A stretch of 64,000 nt of DNA from Gemmatimonadota bacterium. Lineage in GTDB: Bacteria > Latescibacterota > UBA2968 > UBA8231. Below, one piece after another: positions 44,939 through 62,163 of the stretch. How positions within the stretch are numbered: position 1 is the stretch's first letter; every line of letters begins with the position of its first letter. A program made the position numbers and the translations under genes. The DNA lies in assembly GCA_018660835.1 (NCBI GenBank), contig JABJJN010000008.1, positions 234,977-298,976 of the forward strand. The letters run 5' to 3'. The notes beneath the pieces are model-generated. The model searched no databases. It had not been told where the DNA came from and saw only the letters and a list, made by a program, of their open reading frames with translations.

Positions 44939-46225
44939 TTAGTCGGCAGTGGATTCGCCGGGGATGCGTTTGCCCTGGGGATCGAAGCCATCATCGGGCA
45001 CGAGCCCACCGATCTCCTGCTGCAGCGATTCATCAAGATAGTGCTCGACGGAGTCCGCCGGCCCGTGCACGTGGTCGTGGGGTAACCCGAGTTGGTTCAG
45101 ATATGTTTCCCAAAGCCGATGTCCCCGCAGCAACTGCAACCCCTGACGCCGGCCTGCAGTAGTAAGATCAACCGTCGCATCTGCCTCAAGTGCGACGAGC
45201 CCGCGACCTCGCAGCAGGCGCAGGGCCCACTGCGCCAGCCAGGGATGCACGGAGGCAAGGCCCAACGCATCCCGACGACGCCACGTCCTCTCCGCACCTT
45301 TCTCTGTCTGTCGCACCATACCCAGCAGGATATGGTCCTGCGCAACCTTCACACTCAAGCGCCCACGCGATATGGCACGAGCCAACAGGCCCTGGCGCGG
45401 CGCCACGAGAATGGACACACCAAACAGCGCCCCAAGGACGACCACCATCGCACCGGCTATCGAACTATTCCACAGACCAGCCAGGTAGTAGCCACCTATG
45501 GCCGAGATCGCCCCTAGGACCACAGCGATGCCGAGAATAGTCGCCAGCCGATCACTCCATAGATAGGCAGTTGCTCCCGGAACGATCAGCATCGCCACGA
45601 CGAGAATTGCCCCCACCGATTCGAAAGAGGCGACAGTCGTCACCGACACAGCGCCCATCAGCAAGTAGTGAATGAGCGTCGCATTCACGCCAACCGCCAA
45701 CGACAGCCCTGGATCGAAGGAGGCGAGGGTCAGTTCCTTGTAGAGGAGGCCGACGAAAAGCAGGTTGAAAATCAACACACCAGAAAGAATCCATACGGGT
45801 CGGGGGCCGTAATCCTGATCATTCCACAGGAGCGTATCAAGAGACGTGTAGGCAATCTCTCCGTACAGCACGCACTCCTGATCGAGATCGACCTGCCCAG
45901 CGTAGACGGAAATCAGTACAACACCGAGGGCAAACAGGGCCGTAAACACGATACCGATGCTCGCATCCTCGGGGACAGACCAGCGCCGGTGGAATGCTTC
46001 CACCAACAGGGTCGTCAGCAATCCGAATGTGGCAGCACCGATGAACATGGGCAAAATCGCTCGACTTTCGCTGAAGAAGAAAGCGATCGCAATACCGGGT
46101 AACACAGCGTGACTCAAGGCGTCGCCAAGGAGAGACATCTTGCGCAAGACGAGGAAGGTGCCCAGCAACGCGCAGGATGTGGCAGCCAGTATGCCGGTAA
46201 GGATGATCCACCCCGCGTCAGTCAT
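44939..46225 (-). CDS. Mn/Zn-type ABC permease with C-terminal DtxR-like domain
   Basis: A 428-residue protein. Residues 1-~275 form the eight-helix ZnuB/TroC permease (LVLRKMSLLGDALSHAVLPGIA, SVGAILVVAMLIVPGATAYL). After APRQGLL the C-terminal 140 residues are soluble and resemble DtxR/MntR repressors: a winged-helix-like region and a dimerisation-like segment LLRGHRLWETYLNQLGLP with HDHVHGPADSVEHYLDE. The last gene of the four-gene importer operon, it overlaps the preceding permease by ATGA. The appended domain may sense the transported metal. Confidence 0.88.
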   Translation of the reverse strand: MTDAGWIILTGILAATSCALLGTFLVLRKMSLLGDALSHAVLPGIAIAFFFSESRAILPMFIGAATFGLLTTLLVEAFHRRWSVPEDASIGIVFTALFALGVVLISVYAGQVDLDQECVLYGEIAYTSLDTLLWNDQDYGPRPVWILSGVLIFNLLFVGLLYKELTLASFDPGLSLAVGVNATLIHYLLMGAVSVTTVASFESVGAILVVAMLIVPGATAYLWSDRLATILGIAVVLGAISAIGGYYLAGLWNSSIAGAMVVVLGALFGVSILVAPRQGLLARAISRGRLSVKVAQDHILLGMVRQTEKGAERTWRRRDALGLASVHPWLAQWALRLLRGRGLVALEADATVDLTTAGRRQGLQLLRGHRLWETYLNQLGLPHDHVHGPADSVEHYLDESLQQEIGGLVPDDGFDPQGKRIPGESTAD

Positions 46226-47565
46226 CCGACCACCTCCTCACCACGCTCGCGACCTGCAGGTCGGTAGCCACTACCACTACCGTGGATGTCGACGACCCGC
46301 TCCGTGTCGATGCCGTGATCTCGGCGTAGGATTTCTTCGAGGCGTTCGAGGATATCTGGCGTCAGCAGATGCTCTACCTCATCCGCCGGGCGATCGACAT
46401 GGTCCGCAGCCAGAATGTCTCGATAGACGAGATAATGTTCCCACAGACGATGGCATTTGACGACGAAGGTTCCCTCTGCGAGACCGGCGGGTGTCGCCTC
46501 AACGCCTTTGTGATCGAGGGTAACCATATCGAGTCGGCGCAGACGCTTGGCCTCTCTCGTGACCCTTCGACGTTCCCAACCGAGTTCGTCCACTAACTCC
46601 TGCGTACTGAAAGGCCGTGCTTTGCCGGCGCGCTCCTCCAACTCTATGAGGGCGCGAAGCAGATGATGTCGCCGCTCGCGCAGGGCATTGGCCCGCTGTC
46701 GCAACCAGCGAGCCAAGACGCCGCGGCGCGGCGCAAACAAAGCCGAAACGACAAACAGGCCTGTAGCGACAAGCACCATGACAGGGCCTGTAGGCACCCG
46801 CGGTGCCTGGGCACTGAGAAAGGTTCCCGTCGCGCCGGACACACCGCCGATGACTGCTGCGAGGACGACCATCACGTGTAGTCGTTCGGTCCAGAATCGC
46901 GCCGCCACAGCGGGTGTAATCAGCATCGCCGCGATGAGTACCACACCGACCGCCTGCAGCCCCACCATCACCGTCAGCACAATGAGCCCCATTAACGCCA
47001 GATCCACCTTCTGCAGTGAATATCCGAGAGATTGCAGGAAATTTGGATCGAAAATCAGCGCCTTGAATTCTTTGTAGAGAATCAACACGACGACGAAGAT
47101 GAACAGACTCATCACCGACATGACACGCACATCGTCCTCTACCATGGACGCCGCCTGGCCGAAAAGAAACTTGTCCAGTCCCGCCTGATTTCCCACGAGA
47201 CTTCGCTGGATATGTGTCAGCAGGACGATGCCGACACCGAAGAACACCGTCAGGACAATACCAATGGCTGCATCAGCTTTTATGCGCGTACGGGATGTGA
47301 TGAATTGAATGAGCACAACACCAATGATGCCAGTACAGGTAGCGCCCGTGATCAGAACGGGGAGTGACTTGCTACCCGTCCACAGAAATGCGAGGGCCAC
47401 ACCGGGCAGCGCCGCATGCGCCAGAGCATCGCCCATAAGCGAGCGACCGCGAAGAACGGCGAAGGAACCGAGTGCGCCGCCGGTGGCACCGATCAGCAGG
47501 GAGCCGAACAGCACCATGCGCACCGTCGCATCTTCCAGGTGCAGGGCTGAGAGAAAGTCGAACAT
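46222..47565 (-). CDS. Mn/Zn-type ABC permease with C-terminal DtxR-like domain
   Basis: A 447-residue paralogue of the next gene: permease residues 1-~285 (GRSLMGDALAHAALPGVALAF, AVGVVLIAAMLITPAVAARF), then a clearer winged helix (FSTQELVDELGWERRRVTREAKRLRRLDMVTLDHKG reduced to its core) and the DtxR dimer/metal segment CHRLWEHYLVYRDILAADHVDRPADEVEH in part. The two permeases probably form a heterodimeric channel. It follows the ATPase gene after 12 bp. Confidence 0.88.
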   Translation of the reverse strand: MFDFLSALHLEDATVRMVLFGSLLIGATGGALGSFAVLRGRSLMGDALAHAALPGVALAFLWTGSKSLPVLITGATCTGIIGVVLIQFITSRTRIKADAAIGIVLTVFFGVGIVLLTHIQRSLVGNQAGLDKFLFGQAASMVEDDVRVMSVMSLFIFVVVLILYKEFKALIFDPNFLQSLGYSLQKVDLALMGLIVLTVMVGLQAVGVVLIAAMLITPAVAARFWTERLHVMVVLAAVIGGVSGATGTFLSAQAPRVPTGPVMVLVATGLFVVSALFAPRRGVLARWLRQRANALRERRHHLLRALIELEERAGKARPFSTQELVDELGWERRRVTREAKRLRRLDMVTLDHKGVEATPAGLAEGTFVVKCHRLWEHYLVYRDILAADHVDRPADEVEHLLTPDILERLEEILRRDHGIDTERVVDIHGSGSGYRPAGRERGEEVVG

Positions 47566-47577
47566 GGAGGCAGCCGC

Positions 47578-48480
47578 CTAGCCCCGTCCTCTCTCGTAGT
47601 CCTGCACGGCCTGTGCCGCCTGTGACAGCACGGTGAGACGTCCGCCGTAGGTCTTATTGAGCGTCGTCTCGTTGAAGACTTCCTCCGTGGGGCCACTGGC
47701 TACGACACGCATATTGAGCATGATGACCCAGTCGAAGTAGCGAGTCACCGTCTGTAGGTCGTGGTGCACGACCAGAATCGTCTTGCCCTGAGCACGCAGT
47801 TCCATGAGGATATCGATGATGGCTGCTTCCGTCGCCGCATCGACACCGGCGAAGGGCTCATCCATCAGATAGACCTGGGCATCCTGCGCCAGCGCGCGGG
47901 CCAGAAAAACACGCTGCTGCTGCCCCCCCGACAGCTGACTGATCTGGCGATCGGCATACTCCGCCATTCCCACTTTGGCCAATGCCTCCGTCGCGATCTG
48001 CTTGTCCTGTCGCGACGGGCGACGGAACCATCCCACGTGGCCGTAGCGTCCCATGGTCACGACCTCGTGGGCACTGATGGGGAAATCCCAGTCGACGGAT
48101 TCACGCTGTGGCACATAGCCGACGATGCGTCGCATCTCTTCGTATGGCTTGCCATAAATACGTGCCCACCCGGAAGCCTTTGGTACCAGATTCATGATCG
48201 CCAGAATCATTGTGCTCTTGCCGGCACCGTTGGGCCCGACGATACCGACGAGCTTGCCCTCGGGAACATCAAGGTCGACGTCCCATAGAACCGGCTTGCG
48301 ATGATAGGCGATGGTCATGTCGTGAATGCGAATCGGAATCTTCTCCGGTTCCACGTCTGGCAGCAACTGGATTGCCGGCGCAGCGGGTGCAGCGGACGAG
48401 TCTTGCTCTGGCGTCGGACTCTGGTCACCCTCTGGCGAGGGACTCAGGTCACCCTCTGGCGTGGAACTCAGGTCACTCAT
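47578..48480 (-). CDS. Mn/Zn-type ABC transporter ATP-binding protein
   Basis: A 300-residue ATPase: Walker A GPNGAGKST, Q-loop YVPQRESVDWDFP (typical of Mn/Zn importers), signature QLSGGQQQR, Walker B VYLMDEPFAGVD and switch His in VVHHDL. An unusual N-terminal ~45 residues carry an acidic Ser/Pro repeat (TPEGDLSP, SPEGDQSP) encoded by a 24-bp tandem repeat. It overlaps the substrate-binding protein gene by ATGA. Confidence 0.92.
   Translation of the reverse strand: MSDLSSTPEGDLSPSPEGDQSPTPEQDSSAAPAAPAIQLLPDVEPEKIPIRIHDMTIAYHRKPVLWDVDLDVPEGKLVGIVGPNGAGKSTMILAIMNLVPKASGWARIYGKPYEEMRRIVGYVPQRESVDWDFPISAHEVVTMGRYGHVGWFRRPSRQDKQIATEALAKVGMAEYADRQISQLSGGQQQRVFLARALAQDAQVYLMDEPFAGVDAATEAAIIDILMELRAQGKTILVVHHDLQTVTRYFDWVIMLNMRVVASGPTEEVFNETTLNKTYGGRLTVLSQAAQAVQDYERGRG
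48417..48480 (-). repeat. 24-bp tandem repeat inside the ABC ATPase N-terminus
   Basis: Two nearly identical 24-bp units (48417-48440, 48441-48464) and a partial third at 48465-48478 encode an eight-residue S-P-x-P-E-G-D-x repeat. Copy-number change would keep the frame. Confidence 0.8.
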
Positions 48481-49424
48481 CGGAGGGCCCCAACGAGCGT
48501 CGTCACATTGGTTCGCACCATACCGACATATGTGTCCGCACCACTACCGGCTGCGCCCATGGCATCAGAATACAGAGTGCCACCGATGACGACCTCGTGT
48601 CCTCGTGCCAGACAACCCTCGCGCACAGCATTGATCGACCGTTCAGGGACACTGCTCTCGACGAAAATCGCCGGGATCTGTCGTTCTGAAATCATCGACA
48701 CGAGACGACGCACATCATTGACGCCGTACTCAGCCACAGTTGAGATCCCCTGAAGCCCCAGGACCTCCAGACCGTATGCCTTGCCGAAGTAGCCAAACGC
48801 GTCATGAGCGGTAATCAGGACACGCCGTGGTTGTGGGATCGTATGTACCTGCGCCTGAACCCACGCATCCAATTCGTCGAGTTGCTCCGCATAACGGTCG
48901 GCGCGGGCGTGGAAGGAATCAGCATTTGCCGGCTCCGCAGCGCTCAATGTCGAATCCACCGCTGCGATCGTCAGCCGCCAGAGACCAACATCAAACCAGA
49001 TATGCGGATCGAAATGCCCCTTGAACTCGGGTGGTCGCCGCAGCAGGTCTTCGGAGATGGTGTGCGAGACGGCGACGACCGTCTTGTTACGGGACATCTT
49101 GTTGAAGATGTCCTCCATTTTGCCTTCCAGGAAGAGACCATTGTAGAAAATGAGATCGGCATTCGTCAGATGCCGAAGATCGCCCTGTGTGGCTTTGTAG
49201 TAGTGAGGATCGACACCCGGCCCCATGAGGCCGACAACGTCTACTCGGTCGCCACCCACCTCAGACACGAGATCGGCAATCATCCCTGTCGTGGCCACTA
49301 CCTGGAGACGGTCAGACGAATGGGAAGCCTCCTGAGGGGCGCAACCGAGAGCCAAGGCCAGAACCAGCGTCGTGAATACGATCAATCTGTGCAAGAAAAT
49401 TGCTCCAGGAGATCCCGTACGCAC
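48477..49424 (-). CDS. Mn/Zn-binding lipoprotein of the ABC importer (TroA/MntA-like)
   Basis: A 315-residue cluster A-I solute-binding protein. The leader ends in lipobox LALGC. Metal ligands are in order: VDPHYYKAT (His), FDPHIWFD (His), FVESSVPE (Glu) and LYSDAMG (Asp); this His-His-Glu-Asp set and the lack of a His-rich loop favour Mn (or Fe) over Zn. GTG at 49424 begins the frame, but TTG at 49391, nine bases after GGAG, gives a more normal signal peptide. First gene of the four-gene operon, divergent from a DtxR-family regulator. Confidence 0.9.
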   Translation of the reverse strand: MRTGSPGAIFLHRLIVFTTLVLALALGCAPQEASHSSDRLQVVATTGMIADLVSEVGGDRVDVVGLMGPGVDPHYYKATQGDLRHLTNADLIFYNGLFLEGKMEDIFNKMSRNKTVVAVSHTISEDLLRRPPEFKGHFDPHIWFDVGLWRLTIAAVDSTLSAAEPANADSFHARADRYAEQLDELDAWVQAQVHTIPQPRRVLITAHDAFGYFGKAYGLEVLGLQGISTVAEYGVNDVRRLVSMISERQIPAIFVESSVPERSINAVREGCLARGHEVVIGGTLYSDAMGAAGSGADTYVGMVRTNVTTLVGALR

Positions 49425-49478
49425 AAACCGGACGGGACTGAGGTCTTTTCGAGGTGAATCCTATCTGAGGGTCACGAA

Positions 49479-49494
49479 TTTAGTCAAGGCTAAA
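49479..49494. promoter_or_regulatory. palindrome in the DtxR/metal-importer intergenic region, candidate operator
   Basis: TTTAGTCAAGGCTAAA is a 16-bp inverted repeat with seven-base arms and one mismatch. It lies midway between the divergent starts of the importer operon and the DtxR-family regulator and resembles the A/T-flanked TTAG-type boxes of DtxR/MntR proteins. Functional assignment is inference. Confidence 0.45.
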
Positions 49495-49605
49495 CCCTAT
49501 GTCAAACACTTGCAAAAACATGGAAGATTGGCGTACGTATAGAAAGTCAATTCACCAGGTCGGTTGCACCCAAAGATTCAACCAGCACTCAGTTGGAGGC
49601 CCTCT

Positions 49606-50292
49606 GTGCTCAGTGAAGCTGTTCAGGACTACCTGAAATCAATCTATAAACTCGCCAATGCCCCGCAGGCAGGGGAAATGGTGACGACTTCGTTGATCGC
49701 CGAACGGATGCAGGTGTCAGCAGCTTCGGCAACAAACATGATCAAGAAACTTGCAGAGATGCGCCTCCTTGATCACAAGCCGTATCAGGGCGTCGAATTG
49801 ACCTCCACGGGGGTAAAAATGGCGTTGGAAATCGTCCGCCATCATCGCCTGATTGAATTGTATCTGCGGCAGTCATTGGGATACGACTGGGATCAGGTCG
49901 ACGCAGAAGCTGATCGCCTCGAGCACGCGATCTCAGAGGATTTTGAGGATCGCATTGATCGCGCCCTCGGCTTCCCTACTGTGGGCGCCCACGGCGAGCC
50001 GATACCATCCAAGGATGGGGACATCGCCGTCCATGACTATCAGCGACTTGCCGACACGCCTGAGGGCAAGCGTTGCTGGATCCGACAAGTGAGTGATCGT
50101 GATCCGGCGCTACTTCGCTATCTGAAGGAGCATGGCTTGGTACTGGGTGCCGAGCTTGAGATACGCGAAAAATCGCCTTTTCGGGGTCCCCTGCGCATCG
50201 CCATCGGTGCTGACGGCGAACACCATCTGGGCCTGGATGCGGCTGAGCAGATCTACGTCGAACTGGATCCTACAGCCAGTCATTCACCCTGA
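49606..50292 (+). CDS. DtxR/MntR-family metal-dependent transcriptional regulator
   Basis: About 228 residues: winged helix (~1-60; SEAVQDYLKSIYKL, VTTSLIAERMQVSAASATNMIKKL), metal-binding/dimerisation domain (~65-140; HHRLIELYLRQSLGYDWDQVDAEADRLEH) and an FeoA-like SH3 domain (~150-225). GTG at 49606 follows GGAGG at seven bases and gives the family N-terminus; the upstream TTG at 49564 is unlikely. It should repress the divergent Mn/Fe importer when metal is abundant. It ends nine bases inside the convergent LON-domain gene. Confidence 0.92.
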   Translation: MLSEAVQDYLKSIYKLANAPQAGEMVTTSLIAERMQVSAASATNMIKKLAEMRLLDHKPYQGVELTSTGVKMALEIVRHHRLIELYLRQSLGYDWDQVDAEADRLEHAISEDFEDRIDRALGFPTVGAHGEPIPSKDGDIAVHDYQRLADTPEGKRCWIRQVSDRDPALLRYLKEHGLVLGAELEIREKSPFRGPLRIAIGADGEHHLGLDAAEQIYVELDPTASHSP

Positions 50293-51612: not shown

Positions 51613-52554
51613 TTAGTGGTATGACAGGATCGGTTCGATCGCTGCCTGAACCTCGGCTGAGATCGCTTGTGGGACACGGGGATTGAAGGGGCCACCGACG
51701 CCACCCTCCACATCATCCCATCCGCCCAGATGAAGTGCCTCGACAACAGCAGAATAGTTGTACTGACGACCATTGCGGAAACGAATCTCCTCAAGGGGTG
51801 CAACAAGATCCTCAATCTTCTGAGACGCCTCGTAGTCGCCGCGGCGCTGGGCATTGTTGATCGCGTCTGACGCTTTGGCAAAACCGATATTGATGCCCGA
51901 CGTGTGCCCCTTGGCGCCGGCAACGGCGGGCGCTGTGCTGCGATCACCGACACCCCAGATAACCACGCCTGCCTCTGCAGGCACTTGCTCAACAATGGGT
52001 TTCACATCGTCAGGCACGGTCCCCACTTTGATGCCTACAAATTGGGCCGACTCGTTGAGCAACCGCACCGCCGTCTGCGTCTCACGATCCTGACGCAGAT
52101 AGTAGAGAAAACGGGCACCTGAGGAGGCCAATCGTTCGCCCAAGGCCATATAGCCATGATAAATGCCTTCGGGATCAGCGACCCCCGTCAGGGGCATGAG
52201 CAGAAACGCATCGGGTGGGTGAGTGAGCCGGGACTGGCTTTCGATCAGACGTTCTGCCTCGGCGAGTGGATTCGGAGCGATGCCTGCGATAAAAATGCCG
52301 CGGCCGGCGATTCGCTGGGTCGTGAATTCCATGAGCCGCAGCTGTTCGTCTGCGGCGAGATGGTGAATGAGGCTCGTACCTGCAACACACAAGACCCGCT
52401 GCCGCCCCCCATCCAGATCGTTGTTGGCCAGCAGATAGTCGATGTTTCTTCCATGACCATCATAGTCAATGGCACCTGCATCGTTGAACGGAATCGGCGG
52501 AATGGAAATGACCGTATCGAGGGCTTCAAACAGCTCTTCATTGCTCAACGGCAT
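51613..52554 (-). CDS. dihydrodipicolinate synthase-family aldolase/lyase (second copy)
   Basis: A 313-residue TIM barrel of the DHDPS/NAL superfamily: ISIPPIPFNDAGAIDYDGHGRNI at the start, AGTSLIHHL in place of the usual GTTGE, a Tyr in RFLYYLRQD and the Schiff-base Lys in FVGIKVGTVP. It lacks the N-terminal BMC module seen in the other aldolase of this locus and is separated from the FAD gene by 117 bp, so it may act outside the compartment on a related 2-oxo acid. Confidence 0.8.
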   Translation of the reverse strand: MPLSNEELFEALDTVISIPPIPFNDAGAIDYDGHGRNIDYLLANNDLDGGRQRVLCVAGTSLIHHLAADEQLRLMEFTTQRIAGRGIFIAGIAPNPLAEAERLIESQSRLTHPPDAFLLMPLTGVADPEGIYHGYMALGERLASSGARFLYYLRQDRETQTAVRLLNESAQFVGIKVGTVPDDVKPIVEQVPAEAGVVIWGVGDRSTAPAVAGAKGHTSGINIGFAKASDAINNAQRRGDYEASQKIEDLVAPLEEIRFRNGRQYNYSAVVEALHLGGWDDVEGGVGGPFNPRVPQAISAEVQAAIEPILSYH

Positions 52555-52671: not shown

Positions 52672-53862
52672 TCAGCGCTCGATGGCAAAAGGAGTCATGT
52701 CGACCCCTGGATCCCCTTCCGTGATCCAGGCTGTCAGCGCTTGCCCCGTCGCCGGTGCCATGAGGACACCATTCTTGTAGTGACCACTGGCGACATAGTA
52801 TCCGGGCGGCTGCAGGGGCGCGATCAGGGCGCGGCCCCGACGGGGCTTTGGCCGCAGACCAGCATTGTGCTGCACGACATTGCAGGAATGGCCAAGGACC
52901 CTCTCAGCGACCTCCAGCAGTTCCTGCCGGCCCTGCTCGGTGGGTTGAACTGGATCAGACAGATCATAGGCGGTGGCTGGGTCATTGGTGGCACCGACGA
53001 AAAGGTCCCCTGTGCTGGTTGGCAGAAGATGGTAGCCTTCCCAGTGGACGATGCCCTGTAGATGAACCGATGCCTGCAACTGCAGACTCTGTCCGGCCGC
53101 GGACCTCACGGCGCGGGGCGCGAGTCCGAGATTGACTCCCAGGGCTGAAGTTGCCGCCCCGGCGGCGAGGACAACCGTATCGGCCGTGAGTTTCTCCCCC
53201 GTTTCAAGCACTATGGCAGGTGGATCTGTCCCATCGAGATGAGCCACGTGTCCAGGATGGTGTCGGGCGCCGTGGCGCAAAGCGCCCAACCAGAGAGCCT
53301 TTGCCAGTTGCTGCGGATCCACTCGATGGTCTTGAGGCCACAGGCAGGCGGCGATCATTCCGAGTGCCAGCGCCGGCTCCCGTTCGGCGGCAGCGATCGG
53401 TGACAGCCATTGGCAGCGGGCACCGCGCTCCTGCAGACGGGAAACATGCGCTCGAAGCCGTAGGGCCTCTTGTTCGTTGTAGGCGACCTCAAGTCCGCCG
53501 CAGGCGGTCCAACCAATATCTACACCCGTCTCCTCAGCCAATTGACGAGCAAGAGGGTCATATAGTTCGTGGCTGAGTCGGTAGAAGGCGGACAGACTGT
53601 CCAGCCCTGCTGTGGGACGCGTGAGGACGCCAAGGCTGGCGCGGGTCGGAGCGGACTGGATGCGGGCGGGATCTTCCTCGCACACAAGCACAACGTGTAT
53701 GCCAGCTCGCGACAGATAGTACGCGACACTGCGACCGATCAGGCCACCACCAACGATGAGACAGGAGTGGACGATGGCCAGCTCTAGGGCCGTTGGGCCA
53801 AGTAGGAGGTTCGCGTCAGCTGCGGTGGACCAGAGGTGGCAGATGCGTGACCGGACAACCAC
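52672..53862 (-). CDS. FAD-dependent amine oxidoreductase (DAO/ThiO-like)
   Basis: A 396-residue protein with the Rossmann FAD motif LIVGGGLIGRSVAYYLSRAG, a central VVLAAGAATSALG strand and the C-terminal ASGHYKNGVLMAPATGQ typical of glycine oxidase ThiO and D-amino-acid oxidases. It would oxidise a small amine or amino acid to an imine/oxo acid. The listed GTG overlaps the aldolase gene by 47 bp; a start closer to the Rossmann strand (non-ATG, near 53781) is likely. Its place after the aldolase suggests it makes or consumes a 2-oxo acid, which is inference. Confidence 0.78.
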   Translation of the reverse strand: MVVRSRICHLWSTAADANLLLGPTALELAIVHSCLIVGGGLIGRSVAYYLSRAGIHVVLVCEEDPARIQSAPTRASLGVLTRPTAGLDSLSAFYRLSHELYDPLARQLAEETGVDIGWTACGGLEVAYNEQEALRLRAHVSRLQERGARCQWLSPIAAAEREPALALGMIAACLWPQDHRVDPQQLAKALWLGALRHGARHHPGHVAHLDGTDPPAIVLETGEKLTADTVVLAAGAATSALGVNLGLAPRAVRSAAGQSLQLQASVHLQGIVHWEGYHLLPTSTGDLFVGATNDPATAYDLSDPVQPTEQGRQELLEVAERVLGHSCNVVQHNAGLRPKPRRGRALIAPLQPPGYYVASGHYKNGVLMAPATGQALTAWITEGDPGVDMTPFAIER

Positions 53863-55039
53863 GAGCCCCTGTGACTGAAAATCCCATGTCGCTCAGGACA
53901 CAACTGATCTCCATCTCCAGCTGCTGCAGATAGTCACGCTCATCTGAACTCATGACAGTGCGCGCGGGACCGACATCAAAGCCACGGACACGGACACCTG
54001 TCTTGAACCCCTCTGGGAAGTTCACGCCGAGCAACATGAGATTGATCAGCGGCAGAATCCGATACTGCAATTCACGCGCTCGATCCAGATCATTGGCCAG
54101 CGTCCGCTCGTAGAGTTCGACGATGATCTCCGGAATGATACCCGACGTTGCGATGGTTCCACCATTGGCGCCCATGATGATAGACGGCAGCAGAATCTCC
54201 TCACAGCCATTGAGCACGACGTAGTCAGGTCGATGCTTGCGCAGACGCTGCATCGTGTTGATGATGCGCGGCAGGTCACGACTCGAGTCTTTTGTCCCAA
54301 AAATGCGATCAAAAGCGAGCAGATCCTCCATTACATCCAGGGGCAGTTCCTGAGTAAACTGCGGGATGTTATAGAGCAGGATATCCAGAGGGGAGTTTCG
54401 CGCAATCTCAGCGAAGTACTCGTAGAGACTGGTATCTGAGATCTTGTAGTAGTAGGGTGGTACAAGAGAGATCGCATCCGCGCCGATGTCAGCGTAATAG
54501 TCGGCCATCTGCAACACATCGCGCACATTGGCTTCGCTGGCACCGGCGAGAATCGGCACGCGCCCACCGTTGACATCCGCAATGAGCCGCACCACATCGC
54601 GCCGTTCCTCGCCGGAGAGTCGGACGAATTCTCCCGTGCTGCCGTTGGGGTAGAGGCCGTGAATTCCGGCGTCGATGAGCCAGCCGATGTAACGCTCCAT
54701 CTCTTTGTAATTGATATTTCCCGCCTCATCGTAGATGACGATGTTCGGCGTGAAAATACCACTGAAGCGTCGACTGCGTTCGGTCCCTCCCGGCGCCTCA
54801 GGCACCCCTGCCGGTTGCGAACCAGAAGCCTGAGTTGTTGGCTGATGGGCGGTCTGGGCATGGGTGTGCGAGGCAGAAGTCGCAGACCTCTTGACCACCT
54901 GGATCTGCCGGGCGCGTAACAGGTCGAGAGCAGAAGGAGTCAATTTCGCCCTGGGACAGACCTCAACCTGGCGTTCGTCACCGGTCAATCGACTCTCCAG
55001 TGTCTGCGCCGTGATCAGGCTGTCATCAATTCTTACCAT
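53816..55039 (-). CDS. DHDPS-type aldolase with BMC-associated N-terminal module, likely signature enzyme
   Basis: A 407-residue protein. Residues ~6-50 form a module ending KLTPSALDLLRARQIQVV, similar to EutT/EutQ N-termini and to the Cys-rich protein four genes upstream. A low-complexity Ser/Thr/Gln linker (~52-90) leads to a complete DHDPS/NAL barrel: GLYPNGSTGEF, Tyr in LLYNIPQFT, Schiff-base Lys in FGTKDSSRD and GANGGTIATSG. Such enzymes split 2-oxo-3-deoxy acids into pyruvate and an aldehyde, which would feed the aldehyde dehydrogenase encoded nearby. ATG follows AGGAG by ten bases. Cargo status is inferred from the added module and the operon. Confidence 0.85.
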   Translation of the reverse strand: MVRIDDSLITAQTLESRLTGDERQVEVCPRAKLTPSALDLLRARQIQVVKRSATSASHTHAQTAHQPTTQASGSQPAGVPEAPGGTERSRRFSGIFTPNIVIYDEAGNINYKEMERYIGWLIDAGIHGLYPNGSTGEFVRLSGEERRDVVRLIADVNGGRVPILAGASEANVRDVLQMADYYADIGADAISLVPPYYYKISDTSLYEYFAEIARNSPLDILLYNIPQFTQELPLDVMEDLLAFDRIFGTKDSSRDLPRIINTMQRLRKHRPDYVVLNGCEEILLPSIIMGANGGTIATSGIIPEIIVELYERTLANDLDRARELQYRILPLINLMLLGVNFPEGFKTGVRVRGFDVGPARTVMSSDERDYLQQLEMEISCVLSDMGFSVTGARGCPVTHLPPLVHRS

Positions 55040-55084
55040 CAAGCTTCAGCTCCTGATGCGTCGCGAAGTCCCCCAGGCACTGGC

Positions 55085-56248
55085 CTAGGCATGAGACAAG
55101 CGATCGGTCAATTCGGCGTAGGGAAGGGCGATGACGTGGCGAGCGAGAAGTTCGCCATGACGCTGTGCGGCTCGTGCCCCTACATCGAGGGCATTGTCCA
55201 CGGCGCCAAGTTCACCACGTATGACGACGGCCGTGAGGAAGTAACCCACTTTGTAGCGCCCCTCGTAGGAGACCTCGGAACTCTTCAACATGGCATCCAC
55301 GGCGCTCACGAGGCCCACGGTTGTGCGAGTCTCCAACAATCCCAGAGCCTGATCTGGTCGCGCCGCATGCGCCGCAGGCGGGGCAACTTCGGCGAAGGCC
55401 GCCACCAGTTGCGGATCGGGGTTGGTGATCAGCGCCTCGCCATTGTTCTGTGCAATGGGCTGCATCGCCTCTGCCGCCTTCGACACGGCGGCCTTCACAT
55501 TGTCGAGAGCGCCCGTCGCGACCGTCGCCACTCGACCGCCACTACCGATTGTCAGCCGAACGATGTCGACAGCCGCTTCTTTGACCATCTGATCGGCGGC
55601 GTGAATGGCGCCGATGTATCCCGTCGTTTCCACCAGCCCGAGAGCTCCGAGGGACTGCTGCTGGCCCGCGGGGGTTGGTGGGAGCAAATGCAGTACATCC
55701 GCTTCGGGCTGTTCAATGACCAGATGACTGAATAGTTCGCCGTGAGAAGAAGCGGCTTCTGCTCCGGCAGCGATGGCTGCCTCGACATCTGCGACACTAC
55801 CCTTCACGGCGGCATGAACCAATGCGCCACCGATAAAGGTCCAGCCCAGCAAGATCACATCCGCTGCCTTGAGCATCCGGTCAACACCGACGATCAGTGG
55901 CACCACACCCTTGGTTTCGAGCCAGCCAATCGCCTCACCTGCAGATAACTCTACGTCGTCGAGGGCTGTCTGCGTGTGCGGCATGGATGCGAGGGTCGCA
56001 TCCTCAGGACGTGGCAGGATGAGGGACGTGATGATCTCACCGTGACGCTGGGCGGCGACATCTGCTGCTGCCATCGCCGTCTGCACATCAGCCGTCGTCC
56101 CGTCGATGATGATGGTCAGCCAGCCAGAGCCGATGCCATGGCGACCAGACAGACGAACACTGGCCGCCTTGCCCATCGCATCGAGGGCGGCAGCAAGGGT
56201 GGTCATCCCTCGACACTCAAAGACGCCAACGGACCCAGTCACAGCCAT
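55085..56248 (-). CDS. shell protein with four tandem BMC domains
   Basis: A 387-residue single frame made of four consecutive BMC (PF00936-type) domains: residues ~6-89, ~106-190, ~202-288 and ~301-385, each starting [VA][IL]G[VWL][FL]E and ending near a HGE plus LP/QP motif. Standard shell proteins have one (BMC-H) or two (BMC-T) domains; four would allow one chain to build two-thirds of a pseudohexamer or two stacked trimers' subunits. The four copies are diverged from each other, so this is not a recent duplication. Start overlaps the stop of the upstream BMC-T gene by one base. It is complete, with no internal stop. Confidence 0.88.
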   Translation of the reverse strand: MAVTGSVGVFECRGMTTLAAALDAMGKAASVRLSGRHGIGSGWLTIIIDGTTADVQTAMAAADVAAQRHGEIITSLILPRPEDATLASMPHTQTALDDVELSAGEAIGWLETKGVVPLIVGVDRMLKAADVILLGWTFIGGALVHAAVKGSVADVEAAIAAGAEAASSHGELFSHLVIEQPEADVLHLLPPTPAGQQQSLGALGLVETTGYIGAIHAADQMVKEAAVDIVRLTIGSGGRVATVATGALDNVKAAVSKAAEAMQPIAQNNGEALITNPDPQLVAAFAEVAPPAAHAARPDQALGLLETRTTVGLVSAVDAMLKSSEVSYEGRYKVGYFLTAVVIRGELGAVDNALDVGARAAQRHGELLARHVIALPYAELTDRLSHA

Positions 56249-56829
56249 CAGTTCCCACCTGCCTTACGAAACTGCCCGAAGGCACCCACAACACATGCCT
56301 CTGGCTGCGATAACACAGCGCTCCCCATGAACCACTCGTTGCCGGACAGTGCCTGGCGCGCACCTTCGATGGCTCGCTCTACCGCACCCAATTCACCCTT
56401 CACGAGGGAGCAAACGACGCGATCTTGCACAGTGAGAACATTGACCAGTTCAACGTCCGCCTCTTTGACCATACGATCGTTGTTCTCTACGTGCAGACCG
56501 TAGCCCCGTATTTCGATCAACCCCAATGCTTCTGCTGTGGCTGACGTGTCGTCCGGGTCAACCGGCACACCGATGAAGTCATCGATGACCGCTTCGGGCT
56601 GCAGCAAACTATTGTGAGCGACATGGCCGGAAACCGTGGCCGCCGCCGCCGTGCCAGCAAGCAGCGACGACTCGATATCACTCACCTCGCCACGCACGAA
56701 GAGTGTCGTAAAGCCACCAATCGATTCCCACCCAGCCAGTTTCACAGCGGCTGCCTTGCAGGCTGCATCTGCGGCGACAATGATTCCTGCCACCCCCTCC
56801 ACTTCGATCATACCAATCGCCTGCGTCAT
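56248..56829 (-). CDS. BMC-T shell protein, divergent
   Basis: A 193-residue two-domain shell protein: domain 1 ~3-88 (AIGMIEVEGVAGIIVAAD), domain 2 ~100-185 (ALGLIEIRGYGLHVENND). It differs markedly from the two near-identical BMC-T proteins of this locus. A Cys in QPEACVVGAFG near the end is in a position where some BMC-T proteins carry metal centres; this is only suggestive. It lies seven bases after the Cys-rich gene and overlaps the four-domain gene. Confidence 0.85.
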   Translation of the reverse strand: MTQAIGMIEVEGVAGIIVAADAACKAAAVKLAGWESIGGFTTLFVRGEVSDIESSLLAGTAAAATVSGHVAHNSLLQPEAVIDDFIGVPVDPDDTSATAEALGLIEIRGYGLHVENNDRMVKEADVELVNVLTVQDRVVCSLVKGELGAVERAIEGARQALSGNEWFMGSAVLSQPEACVVGAFGQFRKAGGN

Positions 56830-56836
56830 CTTCTGC

Positions 56837-57352
56837 CTACTGTTCCAGTCGTGACATGATCTCGTCCGTCAACCGCTGCACGAGGAACTCCAGCTCCTCG
56901 TCGTCCCCTGCGCATTGCTCACAGCTGCAGGCGGATCCACCATTCTTGCCATTGCGAGCGCATTCATCGCAACAAGCGGGCTCAACGTACCCTGAGCCAA
57001 ATTCTTCCGTTTGGCAGCCAAAGGCGCGGTCAGGGTGATCGCATCGACCGTGGTATAGAAGCCCACTCTCCGACCCGGGTGGTAGAATCTCCTGAATCGG
57101 CGTCCCCGTCGTGGGCGAAGACGTCGCTGCGCCCGGTGATGAGCTACGCGCTGCCGACCCAATCGTCGATGATCCGGACGCGCCTTGAATAAGGACGACG
57201 CCGTGCATCCGCAGATAATCCCTCGCCGAGGGCGTCACAATGGCCTTGGCATGCAGATGAACCTCACCCTCCTGCTGATGTCGCTGCGCCAGCAACGATT
57301 CAGTGATCAGCATCTCGTCGAGTTGTAGAGTGTGAGCCATCTTGAGAATCAT
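56837..57352 (-). CDS. Cys-rich BMC-associated protein with EutT/EutQ-like N-terminal module
   Basis: A 171-residue protein. Residues ~13-56 (MLITESLL, AIVTPSARDYLRMHGVVLI) match the module on the operon's aldolase. A Ser/Gly/Pro-rich linker (~58-90) follows, then eight Cys (104, 113, 127, 128, 131, 142, 144, 147) in CxxxxxxxxC, CCxxC and CxCxxC spacing, fit for Fe-S or zinc binding. The C-terminal ELEFLVQRLTDEIMSRLE is an amphipathic helix like BMC encapsulation peptides. I do not recognise the whole protein; a redox or assembly role in the lumen is inference. Starts at 57352 or 57340 are both possible. Confidence 0.65.
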   Translation of the reverse strand: MILKMAHTLQLDEMLITESLLAQRHQQEGEVHLHAKAIVTPSARDYLRMHGVVLIQGASGSSTIGSAARSSSPGAATSSPTTGTPIQEILPPGSESGLLYHGRCDHPDRAFGCQTEEFGSGYVEPACCDECARNGKNGGSACSCEQCAGDDEELEFLVQRLTDEIMSRLEQ

Positions 57353-57361
57353 CGGTCGAGC

Positions 57362-57628
57362 CTACAGCCCGACGCGCTCCTTGAGCGTGGAAATGGGGCG
57401 CGGAATCACATGCACTGAACGCAGGTCTCCGACCCTTTGCGCCGCCTCAGCCCCGGCGTCGACGGCAGCCTTCACCGCCGCAACATCACCCTCGACAAGC
57501 ACATTGACCATACCACTTCCCACCCGCTTCTGACCCGCGTAGGTGACATCCGCGGTCTTCAGCATCGCATCAAGTGCTTCCACTGCTGCGATGAGACCAC
57601 GCGTTTCTATCATTCCCAAAGCTGCCAT
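57362..57628 (-). CDS. BMC-H hexameric shell protein
   Basis: An 88-residue single BMC domain ([56 protein letters not shown]), the main facet-forming tile. It differs from the second BMC-H of the operon at only about six positions. It lies 20 bases after the BMC-T gene. Confidence 0.95.
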
Positions 57629-57648
57629 CAGATCTCTCTTTCTACGCC

Positions 57649-58206
57649 CTATCCCAGAAACAGCCGAATAGCGGCTGCTGCAGGACGGGGAATGACATGG
57701 CGGGACACGACGACACCGACTCTCTCTGCCGCCTCTGCGCCGGCTGCGACAGCAGACTGCACGGAACCGACATCTCCCGTAACGAGCACGGTGATGTACC
57801 CACCACCGATTTCCTGCGAGCGCACAACCTCGACCTCGGCAGCTTTCTCCATTGCATCTGCCGCTTCGATTGCCGCTGTTGCGCCGCGCGTCTCGACCAT
57901 GCCTACCGCTGTGACATCTCCTACAGCGGCATCGCTCGCTTTGGGCACGATCGATGCGAGACCTGCGTGTGGCCGTGCGATCACGTGGGTGCCATTCACT
58001 TCAACGATTCTTGCAGCAGATGTCGCCCCGGCGTCCACGGCGGCGGTCACCGCCGCAACATCCCCCTCACAAAAAATCGTCACCAGGCCGGACCCCACTT
58101 TGTCCCACCCCAGCAACTCTACATTCGCCGCCTTCGCCATTGCGTCGGCACTGACGATCACTCCCGTCAATCCCGTCGTCTCGACCATTCCCACAGCTTG
58201 AGCCAT
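57649..58206 (-). CDS. BMC-T shell protein
   Basis: A 185-residue protein with two BMC domains (~1-88, [20 protein letters not shown]; ~99-185, [20 protein letters not shown]). It forms pseudohexameric trimers. It is a close paralogue of the other 185-residue BMC-T in the operon, sharing most residues, and both are followed by a BMC-H gene. Confidence 0.95.
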
Positions 58207-58222: not shown

Positions 58223-58927
58223 TCAGCGCTTGGTCAATGTGACGTTGCGTGCATTTACGAGATCCACGGCGTTGCCTTCATCCGTGTCGAGATGGACTTC
58301 CAATTTTGATTCCGGTGAGATGCGTACGGAAACATCATCGAACACACCGCCCTGCTCCCCGTCGACGACGAGGCGCATCCGGTCACCTTCCACCACACCA
58401 TATTCAACAGCGTCGTCCGGACTCATGTGCACGTGGCGCGCGGCACGAATCACACCTTCGGCGATCGCCAACCCACCATGTGGCCCAACGAGAAAACACC
58501 CCGGCGTCCCTTTCGTGTTTCCGGAGACGCGGACGGGGGCATCGATGCCAAGAAATCTGGAATCACTAAAGGCCAATTCAATCTGTGATGCATCACGCAG
58601 GGGCCCAAGAATTCGCAGGTTAGAGATCATCTGCTTGCGGGGTCCGAAAATCGTCACCGTTTGCTCGGAGGCGAAGGCACCGCTCTGATAGAGTGGCTTC
58701 ATGACGGTCAGTTCCGCCTGCGGACCGAAGAGGATTCGCAGCGTGTCTTGATCCAGATGACAGTGTCGCGCGGAGATATTTGCAATCAGTCGAGGCGAGC
58801 CACTCTGCCCTTCGTTGCGGTGCCTGTGGCCGGGTTCGTGATCTTTATGTCCGGCGCCGGGTTGATGGCGCCGGAGGGAATCGCGGACCATCTGCTCTAC
58901 AGTCGCCCGAGAAATCATGGCCGTCAT
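58223..58927 (-). CDS. pduL: phosphate acyltransferase PduL, BMC type
   Basis: A 234-residue enzyme that converts acyl-CoA to acyl phosphate and recycles CoA inside the compartment. Metal-binding His motifs SARHCHLD, ARHVHMSP and LEVHLDTDEGNA are intact. The N-terminal ISRATVEQMVRDSLRRH is an amphipathic helix typical of encapsulation peptides, followed by a His-rich linker (~22-45). ATG overlaps the EutN-type gene's stop (ATGA). Confidence 0.93.
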   Translation of the reverse strand: MTAMISRATVEQMVRDSLRRHQPGAGHKDHEPGHRHRNEGQSGSPRLIANISARHCHLDQDTLRILFGPQAELTVMKPLYQSGAFASEQTVTIFGPRKQMISNLRILGPLRDASQIELAFSDSRFLGIDAPVRVSGNTKGTPGCFLVGPHGGLAIAEGVIRAARHVHMSPDDAVEYGVVEGDRMRLVVDGEQGGVFDDVSVRISPESKLEVHLDTDEGNAVDLVNARNVTLTKR

Positions 58928-59238
58928 GCCGCATCGTTGACGGCATTCAGGTCTAGCGACTGACCATCCGTCGTAAGTGCATCGAGAATCCCAACGACCA
59001 CCGCATCCGTCGGCACACTTCCCATCTCGGGGGCACTGCGAGCAGAGCTGCCCATCACGGTGATCACAACCTCTCCCGTTCCCGCGCCCACGGCGTCAAC
59101 GCAGACCATCTGACGGCCTGTGCGCTGCAGCCCCTCCGGGCGAACGGTGAGTACTTCAACCAGCAACAGTTTGCGTCCCACCAGCGTATCGAGCTTGGCA
59201 GTGGAGACGATGTTCCCTTTGACCTCGGCAAGTAACAT
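58924..59238 (-). CDS. EutN/CcmL-type pentameric shell protein
   Basis: A 104-residue BMC-P vertex protein: LAEVKGNIVSTAKLDTLVGRKLLLVE, VCVDAVGAGTGEVVITVMGSSAR and TDAVVVGILD are all typical. Pentamers cap the polyhedral shell. It is coupled to pduL and lies seven bases after the aldehyde dehydrogenase gene. Confidence 0.93.
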   Translation of the reverse strand: MLLAEVKGNIVSTAKLDTLVGRKLLLVEVLTVRPEGLQRTGRQMVCVDAVGAGTGEVVITVMGSSARSAPEMGSVPTDAVVVGILDALTTDGQSLDLNAVNDAA

Positions 59239-59245
59239 GGCGGCT

Positions 59246-60673
59246 TCAGGTAATCCGAAAGTAGTCGATAAGAGCGCAACGACGACGACGGGTAAAGGTG
59301 CGTGCCGTGGTCATTCCTTCACCTGTAGGTCCGGCGATCGAAAAGGTCGCGTAGCCCTCACCACCGACACCTAATCCGGCGAAAGAGGGGCCATTTTTCA
59401 CAAAAACCGTTGTATCCACAGCGCGTGCCATATTGTGCATGTTTTCGATATTGCGCGAGTGGATTATCGCTGTGTGCCGATAACCGTGTTCCGATTCGAT
59501 GGCTGCACGGATTCCTTCCTCCACATTGCGTACCCGAATGATGGGGAGGAAAGGCATCATTTGCTCGACTTCGACGAAGGCATGCTTCGCGTCGGTCTCG
59601 CCGATCAACAGGCGCAATTGGTCGTCCAACTTGAGACCGATGGACGCCGCCAGGACGTTGGCATTGCGGCCGACGAAATCGCGATTCACATGAGGCTTGC
59701 CGTCGTCTCCAAGGGGCAAGGCAACCTTCGTCAATGCCTCGATCTGACGACGATCTAGTTCGACAGCACTATAGGCAAGCATTTCACGTTTGAGTTCATC
59801 GGCGACAGAATCGACGACAAAACACTGCTTCTCGCCAATACACAGGACATTGTTGTCGAAGGCGGCACCATCGATGATGTCGCGCGCCGCTTTGCGGATG
59901 TCAGCCGTCTCATCCACCAGAACCGGCGGGTTCCCCGGCCCTGCGGCGATCGCCTTCTTACCACTGCGCATTGCCGCCTTCGCAACGGCGGCCCCCCCGG
60001 TAACCAGCACGAGACGCACGAGACGATGATGAAACAACTCGTCTGCGGACTCGATGGTGGGCTCGCCGATGGACGCGACAAGGTTGGCGGGTCCACCAGC
60101 GCGCACAATCGCCTCATTGAGCAACTGTACCGCATGTGCAGACACCACCTTGGCACCCGGATGCGGGTTCACCACGACAGCATTCCCTGCGGCGATAATA
60201 CCAATCGCATTGTTGACGAGGGTCGGTACCGGATGCGTCGACGGCGTGACGGCACAGATCACACCATAGGGTGCCATCTCCTCGACGGTGAGGCCATGAT
60301 CGCCCGTCCACGACACCGACGTCAGGTCCTCGACACCGGGCGTGAGGTCCGCTGCCAGTGCGTGTTTCTTCAGTTTGTCTTCGAGGCGACCGATACCGGT
60401 CTCTTCGAGGGTCATGCGCGAGAATGAGTCGGCGTGATCGCGGGTGACCTGACGAATTGCCTCGATGACCTGCCTGCGCTCTTCGAGACTCTTTGTCAGC
60501 AGCTCTTTTTGGGCCCGGTCAGCGGCGGTGACTGCCTCATCGACTGTGGCAAAGACGCCACCCCCAGATCGTCGCGGGCTTGCGGTGGCTCTACCTGCCG
60601 GAGCCGACTGCACGACGCGCTGCACGACCTCCTCGACAATCTGCCGAACGCGATCTTCGTTGACGTTGTTCAC
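59246..60673 (-). CDS. CoA-acylating aldehyde dehydrogenase, BMC type (PduP/EutE-like)
   Basis: A 475-residue enzyme oxidising an aldehyde to acyl-CoA with NAD+. The N-terminal helix EDRVRQIVEEVVQRVV plus a Ser/Ala/Arg linker (to ~42) is a standard encapsulation peptide. Nucleotide-binding AVTPSTHPVPTLVNNAIG and GAGNPP-like GPGNPPVLVDE segments are present, and the catalytic Cys is in FDNNVLCIGEKQC. With PduL it forms the metabolosome core. It lies 22 bases after BMC-H. Confidence 0.95.
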   Translation of the reverse strand: MNNVNEDRVRQIVEEVVQRVVQSAPAGRATASPRRSGGGVFATVDEAVTAADRAQKELLTKSLEERRQVIEAIRQVTRDHADSFSRMTLEETGIGRLEDKLKKHALAADLTPGVEDLTSVSWTGDHGLTVEEMAPYGVICAVTPSTHPVPTLVNNAIGIIAAGNAVVVNPHPGAKVVSAHAVQLLNEAIVRAGGPANLVASIGEPTIESADELFHHRLVRLVLVTGGAAVAKAAMRSGKKAIAAGPGNPPVLVDETADIRKAARDIIDGAAFDNNVLCIGEKQCFVVDSVADELKREMLAYSAVELDRRQIEALTKVALPLGDDGKPHVNRDFVGRNANVLAASIGLKLDDQLRLLIGETDAKHAFVEVEQMMPFLPIIRVRNVEEGIRAAIESEHGYRHTAIIHSRNIENMHNMARAVDTTVFVKNGPSFAGLGVGGEGYATFSIAGPTGEGMTTARTFTRRRRCALIDYFRIT

Positions 60674-60695: not shown

Positions 60696-60962
60696 CTACA
60701 GGCCCGTGCGCTCCTTCAAGGTGGCGATAGGGCGAGGGATCACATGGACGGAGCGCAGATCGCCAACGCGTTGCGCCGCTTCGGCGCCTGCATCGACTGC
60801 AGCCTTCACGGCGGCCACATCTCCTTCAATGAGCACATTCACCATGCCACTGCCAACTCGCTTCTGCCCCGCGTAGGAGACATCCGCCGTCTTCAACATC
60901 GCATCGAGTGCCTCTACGGCGCCGATCAGGCCGCGTGTCTCGATCATTCCCAGTGCTGCCAT
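60696..60962 (-). CDS. BMC-H hexameric shell protein
   Basis: An 88-residue single BMC domain nearly identical to the BMC-H at 57362 (differences such as IGAVEAL for IAAVEAL, YAG preceded by Ser for Thr). The nucleotide sequences have diverged more at third positions, so both copies are under selection. Confidence 0.95.
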
Positions 60963-60995
60963 TGAAATCTTCTCCAGATTCGCGAAAGTGTGGGG

Positions 60996-61553
60996 TTAAC
61001 CCAGGAACAACCGCACGGCAGATGGCGCCGGCCGTGGAATCACCAGACGAGTAACGAGTTCTCCAACCCTCTCAGCCGCTTCAGCTCCAGCGGCGACGGC
61101 AGACTGCACGGAGCCGACATCACCGGTGACCAGGATGGTGACGTAGCCGCCACCAATCTCCTGTGAGCGGACGACTTCAACCTCTGCGGCTTTTTCCATC
61201 GCGTCCGCCGCTTCAATTGCACCCGTCGCACCCCGCGTTTCGACCATCCCGAGGGCACCCACGTCGCCTACGTCGGCACCTTCGGCGGTGGGGACGATTG
61301 CCTGCAAACCGTCGTGTGGACGCGCGATCACGTGGACACCGCTGACCTCCACCACCTTTGCGGCAGATGTGGCACCGGCATCAACGGCGGACTTTACCGC
61401 TGCCACGTCACCCTGGCAGAATACGGTAACCATCCCGGCGCCAACCTTGTCCCATCCCAGCAATTCGACATTGGCCGCCTTCGCCATTGCATCAGCACTG
61501 GCAATCACGCCAGTGAGTCCTACGGTCTCGACCATTCCTACAGCTTGAGCCAT
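60996..61553 (-). CDS. BMC-T shell protein
   Basis: A 185-residue, two-domain shell protein ([40 protein letters not shown]), a close paralogue of the product at 57649. A 33-bp gap separates it from the following BMC-H. It lies 18 bases after the third EutN-type gene. Confidence 0.95.
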   Translation of the reverse strand: MAQAVGMVETVGLTGVIASADAMAKAANVELLGWDKVGAGMVTVFCQGDVAAVKSAVDAGATSAAKVVEVSGVHVIARPHDGLQAIVPTAEGADVGDVGALGMVETRGATGAIEAADAMEKAAEVEVVRSQEIGGGYVTILVTGDVGSVQSAVAAGAEAAERVGELVTRLVIPRPAPSAVRLFLG

Positions 61554-61571: not shown

Positions 61572-61850
61572 CTACGGCGTGGCGTCTGGTTCGATATGAA
61601 TTGTGTCAGCCCTGCCGATGACGACGGCGTCCGCCGGAATCGGTGGGTCGAATGCATTACAGGCCTCACGTGCCACCTCGACGATGACGAGATCATCATC
61701 CTTCATCGCCTGCCAGGTCACACAGACCTCCGGATCTCCCACTCCCTGCAACTGGCGCCCAACGTCCTGCACCAGATGCAATATCTTGTCCTCCAGAGGC
61801 TCAATAGCCCTGGACAATACGACATGCCCCACAACGCGTCCCAGTTTCAT
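61572..61850 (-). CDS. EutN/CcmL-type pentameric shell protein, divergent
   Basis: A 92-residue protein starting MKLGRVVGHVVLSRAIEPLEDKI, a normal EutN/CcmL N-terminus, then a divergent middle (QDVGRQLQGVGDPE) and DAVVIGRADTI end. The open frame extends upstream across the neighbouring gene, but only Met at 61850 gives the family start. It may be a specialised vertex protein. Confidence 0.8.
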   Translation of the reverse strand: MKLGRVVGHVVLSRAIEPLEDKILHLVQDVGRQLQGVGDPEVCVTWQAMKDDDLVIVEVAREACNAFDPPIPADAVVIGRADTIHIEPDATP

Positions 61851-61863: not shown

Positions 61864-62163
61864 TCAAGAGACGCTGTCTTTGTCGATGATACTGTTGCTG
61901 TCAATAATTCCACTGTTGCTGTCAATAATTCCGACGACGACACTGCGAATCGGGGGATACTCAATACCCGTCGCCTCTGCCCCGGCTGCACCTGACTCGG
62001 AAACAAGCACGTGTGTGCCGATTCCTGCTCCTACCGCATCAATCGCCAACTGTAGAGGCGCATCATCTCCATCCCCGTCACTCAGCACGAGAATCTTGCG
62101 GCTGGCGAGGGACGCGTGTTTGGCCTCTGCCACCAGATGGCCGATGACGGTAGCCTGTCTCAA
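61864..62163 (-). CDS. EutN/CcmL-type pentameric shell protein with repeat tail
   Basis: A 99-residue BMC-P protein: ATVIGHLVAEAKHASLASRKILVL, IDAVGAGIGTHVLVSE and RSVVVGIID. The tail past the domain is a seven-residue repeat (GIIDSNS type) encoded by a 21-bp tandem repeat. It starts at TTG, overlapping the previous stop (TTGA), so translation is probably coupled. Confidence 0.85.
   Translation of the reverse strand: MRQATVIGHLVAEAKHASLASRKILVLSDGDGDDAPLQLAIDAVGAGIGTHVLVSESGAAGAEATGIEYPPIRSVVVGIIDSNSGIIDSNSIIDKDSVS
61891..61932 (-). repeat. perfect 21-bp tandem repeat in EutN-type gene tail
   Basis: Two identical, directly adjacent 21-bp units (61891-61911 and 61912-61932) encode the repeated C-terminal heptad. 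Identity at all 21 positions points to recent duplication or slippage. Confidence 0.9.

Follow-up and report, generated by a model that had tools for sequence, protein, structure and literature searches.

A flat BMC ring consists of six domains, and a chain that carries four of them leaves two places to be filled. To our knowledge, the facet tiles described so far are all homomers with six- or three-fold pores, except for the mixed heterohexamers of the CcmK type. The stretch of DNA analysed here (64,000 nucleotides, referred to below as the window) encodes such a four-domain chain, Q, and the question it raises is what closes the ring around it.

The 2021 catalogue of BMC loci (Sutter et al., PMC8217296) recognizes five hexagonal building blocks, all of them with one or two domains. 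Our answer is that the two remaining places would be taken by T3, the divergent two-domain protein encoded directly upstream, and that T3 and Q probably form one heteromeric hexagonal tile of an aldolase-driven metabolosome. With a confidence only slightly better than even, we further propose that this heteromer, with its two-domain and four-domain chains at a fixed 1:1 ratio, is a sixth hexagonal BMC building block, fully asymmetric (pseudo-two-fold), with six different pore lips, and dedicated to one aldolase in a metabolosome whose substrate is undescribed.

The four-domain frame and its setting

The features of the locus, in order of position, are the following:

51613..52554, minus strand: second DHDPS-family protein (PF00701, E 2.5e-11; synteny)
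52672..53862, minus strand: FAD-dependent oxidoreductase of the DAO family (PF01266, E 7.1e-56; synteny)
53816..55042, minus strand: ALD1, DHDPS/NAL-superfamily aldolase, 408 aa (PF00701, E 9.8e-59; motifs)
55085..56248, minus strand: Q, four-domain BMC shell protein, 387 aa (four PF00936 domains; AF2 model)
56248..56829, minus strand: T3, divergent two-domain BMC-T, 193 aa (two PF00936 domains; AF2 pLDDT 90)
56837..57352, minus strand: ORF3, 171 aa, with a Cys-rich C-terminal part and an N-terminus resembling the ALD1 extension (synteny)
57362..57628, minus strand: H1, canonical BMC-H, 88 aa (one PF00936 domain)
57649..58206, minus strand: T2, canonical BMC-T, 185 aa, forming a T-H pair with H1 (two PF00936 domains)
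58223..58927, minus strand: PduL-type phosphotransacylase (PF06130, E 3.5e-66)
58924..59238, minus strand: P1, BMC-P pentamer protein (PF03319, E 5.9e-25)
59246..60673, minus strand: CoA-acylating aldehyde dehydrogenase, EutE/PduP-like (PF00171; NF011927 666 bits, cut-off 403)
60696..60962, minus strand: H2, BMC-H, 88 aa, 94% identical to H1 (PF00936)
60996..61553, minus strand: T1, BMC-T, 185 aa, per-domain 80-87% identical to T2, forming a T-H pair with H2
61572..61850, minus strand: P2, BMC-P (PF03319, E 2.4e-9; the ORF opens at 62006, with the domain start near 61850)
61864..62163, minus strand: P3, BMC-P (PF03319, E 6.6e-17)

The two T-H pairs (57362-58206 and 60696-61553) are nearly identical, which points to a recent duplication, of a sort able to yield the gene order T-H-T-H.

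The Q frame (55085-56248) begins with ATG and contains no stop. In Pfam it matches PF00936 along four stretches (whole-protein E = 1.7e-68, 227 bits for a cut-off of 24.5), and a whole-genome search in six frames placed four in-frame PF00936 matches, each with an E value of 1e-14 to 1e-19, in a single open frame of 392 aa. These searches bear out the uninterrupted 387-residue frame with four BMC domains that a preliminary description, made by reading the window without database searches, had reported, and the per-domain matches number four, not two only. The domains (Q1 to Q4) span residues ~3-92 (H-like), 103-192 (Ta-like or H-like), 199-288 (Tb-like) and 299-387 (H-like). In the window sequence they are only 21-36% identical to one another, as diverged as that description had held them to be, which excludes recent tandem copying. 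They follow each other at a spacing of 96-103 residues, matching canonical BMC-T, and the join between Q2 and Q3 is not longer than the other two.

By its score and its four stretches Q belongs to the PF00936 superfamily, and its setting is that of a BMC locus, with three BMC-P, two BMC-H, two BMC-T, an aldehyde dehydrogenase and PduL in the same stretch. It is not a BMC-T, which has exactly two PF00936 domains per chain (Q has four in 24 orthologues), nor a BMC-H, a single PF00936 domain forming homohexamers, nor one of the circularly permuted types (BMC-Tdp/BMC-Tsp), its domains matching the profile unpermuted from position 1 to the end. Judged from its sequence, Q is a PF00936 shell-type protein outside both BMC-H and BMC-T by domain count. 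With BMC-T (BMC-Ts; HO-5812, 5dih, and PduT, 3n79) it shares tandem unpermuted PF00936 domains, linkers of BMC-T length and a predicted side-by-side placement of the domains; it differs in having four domains instead of two (so that three Q chains have too many domains for a single hexagonal ring), in its obligate partner T3 and in the six different pore loops of the pair, against two in BMC-T. With BMC-H (PduA/EutM/CsoS1 type) it shares the fold of each domain, Q1 and Q4 being the nearest; unlike the single-domain formers of homohexamers, however, these two are fused with two other domains in one chain.

No four-domain BMC chain was present among the PDB sequence matches or in Pfam/NCBIfam, and none with three or four BMC domains was found in the literature searchable in full text, the main text of the catalogue included. 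Within the searchable papers, the PDB and Pfam/NCBIfam, the arrangement is thus an undescribed one, as the first reading of the window had supposed. One literature match to “four BMC domain” was rejected, since it concerned four separate proteins.

Q is not a peculiarity of one assembly. We searched 64 genomes of the window's phylum and found it in 26, in 24 of them as an intact, stop-free ORF with four domains, including two single-contig assemblies (G050 and G051); the carriers fall into two families (f1 and f3) of one class. A scan of 84,980 species genomes, which reaches close relatives only, gave eight Q loci, in MAGs whose label is Gemmatimonadota, Latescibacterota or unclassified. Close pairs have a Q dN/dS of 0.04-0.16, a sign of strong purifying selection. 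Contig ends interrupt the gene in G062, and in G063 (locus L015) it is split 3+1 (302 + 86 aa), with the fourth domain in another frame and the break at positions 4141-4180 of the locus, near a GGGG run; the break reflects either an indel of one base or a gene that is truly split. This last case is what could be said for an accidental fusion, an assembly error or a missed stop joining two BMC-T genes; against such an artefact stand the 24 full-length orthologues in the phylum, split by neither stop nor frameshift and coming in part from single-contig genomes, and the purifying selection along the whole frame, and we discard it as having a negligible chance of being true.

The partner T3 and the proposed closure of the ring

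T3 lies directly upstream of Q in every complete locus. At the T3/Q junction of the window, the TGA stop of the former and the ATG of the latter share one base (TGATG), and in the complete loci the likeliest Q start codon lies no more than 14 bases from the end of the T3 stop, on either side of it; this overlap or near-contact implies coupled translation. The genomes with T3 are exactly those with Q (26/64), T3 being found in no other, and the PF00936 domains of the two proteins always add up to six, even where Q is split (2+3+1 in L015). Additionally, in family f3 the genes for T3, Q and ALD1 form an isolated three-gene cluster, with PduL, BMC-H, BMC-P and the aldehyde dehydrogenase on other contigs. 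The pair is therefore obligate, with one gene of each, coupled translation and a linkage that persists apart from all other shell genes; this is our main argument for one shared tile. In such a tile, Q would give four of the six domains and the upstream-encoded T3 the remaining two, one copy of each forming a 1:1 pseudohexamer in which every position is different and the central pore is bordered by six different loops. Of the assemblies considered in the preliminary description, the single-chain two-thirds ring is the one that fits best; that description, though, treated Q alone and missed the two-domain gene upstream. A search for a natural protein joining T3 and Q into one chain of six domains found none, and an open frame of 621 aa in G054 was rejected as such a fusion, being merely an upstream extension of the frame.

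The distribution of the pair also bears on whether Q could be a two-thirds ring closed by another shell protein, either a canonical BMC-T (T1/T2) or two BMC-H, with T3 as a separate specialised trimer. The BMC-H paralogues CcmK3 and CcmK4 can form heterohexamers, according to the passages on them in PMC8217296 and PMC6788708, and the most H-like domains of Q are its first and last. However, f3, which keeps T3 and Q, lacks a canonical BMC-T gene and has no BMC-H in the neighbourhood of Q (its genomes hold only two further PF00936 matches, both BMC-H in the two genomes inspected), and the perfect tracker of Q is T3; we regard closure by T1/T2 or BMC-H as improbable. The likeness of the T3-Q pair to CcmK3/CcmK4 heterohexamers, as cited in the text of PMC8217296, is that of a hexagon made from different chains; there, single-domain paralogues are mixed, whereas the composition of a T3-Q tile would be fixed by fusion (2+4).

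The pore loops are consistent with a shared ring. The loop that lines the pore in known BMC hexamers differs at each of the six T3/Q positions (for example GIGSGW, FIGGAL, IGSGGR and KVGYFL in Q, and SIGGFT and TVHNRV in T3), which for Q agrees with the four different pore lips anticipated from the window alone. In the six T3/Q classes, conservation is 0.81-0.93 in the pore loop versus 0.68-0.77 in the rest of the domain, while the canonical domains of these loci show little or no such contrast (loop/rest 0.88/0.84 for Ta, 0.88/0.83 for Tb and 0.83/0.85 for H). Such a pattern fits six separately constrained lips around one pore.

Q might also build a tile on its own, with T3 as a homotrimer apart: three Q chains would supply 12 domains (3 x 4), enough for two stacked hexagonal layers with two domains of each chain in each layer. 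Double-stacked BMC-T are known (PMC8217296), and both Q2-Q3 and Q1-Q2 score well against the full BMC-T profile. The double-stacking BMC-T, though, are the permuted types, and the Q domains are unpermuted; a change of layer wants a special link, and the Q2-Q3 join is of the same length as the others; moreover, stacking would leave the absence of T3 from genomes lacking Q unexplained. A double-stacked assembly had been among the early suggestions for Q, and the unpermuted domains and BMC-T-length linkers give it no positive support; we consider self-stacking unlikely.

If the shared T3-Q tile is real, a natural 2+4 pair fixes the composition at every tile position and leaves each pore lip free to evolve separately. 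It would be an example of the loss of shell-tile symmetry through gene fusion and, for synthetic biology, an asymmetric tile that allows a single chosen position to be changed.

Domain classes, structural models and the probable origin of the pair

In order to trace the origin of the pair, the six T3/Q position classes were set against canonical domains from the same loci, those of BMC-T (Ta, and Tb as the second domain) and those of BMC-H, using FastTree and a maximum likelihood (ML) tree of 91 domains with UFBoot and the AU test; the domains, of ~90 residues, limit what such trees can separate. By HMM class in 22 loci, Q1 and Q4 are H-like in all (22/22 each), Q3 is Tb-like in 17/22, T3b Tb-like in 19/22 and T3a Ta-like in 17/22, while Q2 is mixed (H in 12/22 vs Ta in 9/22). 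Q1 and Q4 are closest to the BMC-H of the same loci. In the 91-domain ML tree, T3b groups with Q3 (UFBoot 99) and both with canonical Tb (93), Q1 with Q4 (84) and T3a with Q2 (63). In raw similarity, the T3b-Q3 pair alone is firm, and the pairing of T3a, Q1, Q2 and Q4 is divided between 55% and 41% of the bootstraps. PduT-type chains align to Q2-Q3, in register with PduT, and other BMC-T align best on Q1-Q2 or Q3-Q4.

These groupings (T3b with Q3 and Tb, Q1 with Q4, T3a with Q2) are the pattern expected if T3 and an H-T-H chain arose from two adjacent T-H pairs. It is likely, as far as domain sequences tell, that T3-Q descended from a T-H-T-H gene order, T3 being the first T and Q the H-T-H. 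Two adjacent BMC-T/BMC-H pairs would have stood in this order, and the fusion of the last three genes into one chain would have given a tile with a pseudo-two-fold axis, instead of a three- or six-fold one. A fusion of two BMC-T genes is disfavoured as the source of Q: Q1 and Q4 are H-like, and this history lies 30 log-likelihood units below the free tree. In the AU test this history, the three-BMC-T model, has p = 0.06 and the others 0.17-0.29, all tested alternatives thus staying above 0.05.

The structure prediction of the Q monomer that had been proposed with the first description was run with AF2 (7 sequences) and gave four folded domains, with a mean pLDDT of 78 and a pTM of 0.75. Using Foldseek, the model superposes on a natural BMC-T (5dih_C: TMt 0.82, rmsd 2.2 Å, 180 columns) and does not superpose on the synthetic tandem 6ner (TMt 0.45); at least one pair of neighbouring Q domains is thus predicted to lie side by side in the fashion of natural BMC-T. 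T3 modelled alone has a pLDDT of 90 and a pTM of 0.87 (the Q/T3 comparison uses models m5fa6444bb116 and mfd4ac6b5b8d5). It superposes on 6ner (TM 0.87) but not on natural BMC-T (TM of about 0.42, rmsd 16 Å), and according to this model the T3 domains may, unlike those of Q, run the opposite way round the ring. A reversed sense of T3 would change the identities of the neighbours and leave the count of six unchanged. The construct 6ner is thus the best structural match to T3 and, additionally, the best PDB sequence match to the Q profile; it is engineered, with two BMC-H domains, whereas Q is natural, with four diverged ones.

The aldolase and the surrounding metabolosome

Directly downstream of Q lies ALD1, with an N-terminal extension of ~58 residues. 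It has the GxTGE, YNxP and Schiff-base Lys motifs of pyruvate-dependent aldolases (GSTGE at 134, YNIP at 224 and GTKD at 249) and stays below the cut-off of every NCBIfam equivalog; among solved structures, KDG/KDPG aldolase, YagE, DHDPS and NAL are the nearest to it. The pairing with T3-Q is obligate here too. A full-length ALD1 is found in 25/26 of the T3-Q genomes, the exception being G044, where the contig ends just after Q, and G045 has ALD1 without Q, with ALD1 at the very start of a contig and the place of Q off its end, so that both discrepancies are due to contig ends. In G016 and G017, which are distant and have no T3-Q, the ALD1 relative matches from profile position 59 only, the extension being absent.

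This inseparability of T3, Q and ALD1, together with the missing extension in G016/G017, could also speak for T3 and Q as an adaptor or scaffold of the aldolase (an open arc or cap) that would link the enzyme with the shell or a cargo core, and not for a facet tile. The six domains nevertheless keep the BMC fold, their lengths and highly conserved pore loops, none of which an open scaffold needs, and we hold the adaptor to be an unlikely explanation. From the obligate linkage, the proposed T3-Q tile is most likely a specialised gate or docking site for this signature aldolase of the pyruvate type (DHDPS/NAL superfamily). Tetramers with two-fold axes are common among DHDPS/NAL enzymes and, as a speculation, a pseudo-two-fold tile could match them.

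The locus contains a metabolosome core, made of the acylating aldehyde dehydrogenase and PduL. ALD1 most likely cleaves a keto acid, with pyruvate and an aldehyde as products, the aldehyde being retained by the shell; it would then pass to the CoA-acylating aldehyde dehydrogenase and on to PduL. A natural 2+4 pair would mark a BMC type with a DHDPS/NAL-type aldolase at its centre, and keto-acid sugar derivatives are the substrate class to which this points. In one f3 genome, an amidohydrolase/dihydroorotase-like gene, recognized by eye, directly follows ALD1 (L054:11633-12769), a possible clue to the substrate.

Gene order is strongly syntenic in f1: BMC-Ps, (T-H), aldehyde dehydrogenase, BMC-P, PduL, T, H, ORF3, T3, Q, ALD1, DAO oxidoreductase and second DHDPS-like gene, with ORF3 flanked by T3 on one side and by the H gene or PduL on the other. 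ORF3 has no match in Pfam or NCBIfam. Its N-terminus (ORF3, 56837-57352) and the ALD1 extension (54870-55042 of the window) have a “TPSA.D.L” segment in common, which we take to be reminiscent of the N-terminal part of EutT.

With the FRAG/HO/SPU metabolosomes (PMC8217296) the locus shares the BMC-P triplet, the aldehyde dehydrogenase, PduL and partly scattered shell genes. FRAG, a type reported from Gemmatimonadetes (PMC8217296), is characterized by a BMC-P triplet with scattered shell genes, and in this respect the genome agrees with it, with P1-P3 in the window and more PF00936 genes on contigs C12, C61 and C84. It differs from these metabolosomes in the T3-Q pair and in the DHDPS-family aldolase as apparent signature enzyme, which is absent from the main text of PMC8217296. 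The genes on the other contigs (L078, L079 and L080, on C84, C12 and C61) code for two BMC-H, one of them with a long C-terminal extension that recurs in L067, L068, L070, L073 and L081, and for a BMC-T that has an ICSGK motif.

Some further genes of the 64-kb window were noted by eye. A metal-type ABC transporter cluster occupies 44939-50292 and includes two permease ORFs with MntR/DtxR-like C-terminal extensions; a separate MntR-like gene (49564-50292) adjoins the transporter genes. Three ORFs (4758-5501, 17317-18165 and 26478-27389) are PhyH-like (phytanoyl-CoA dioxygenase), a family whose expansion has been reported for Poribacteria (PMC3909097).
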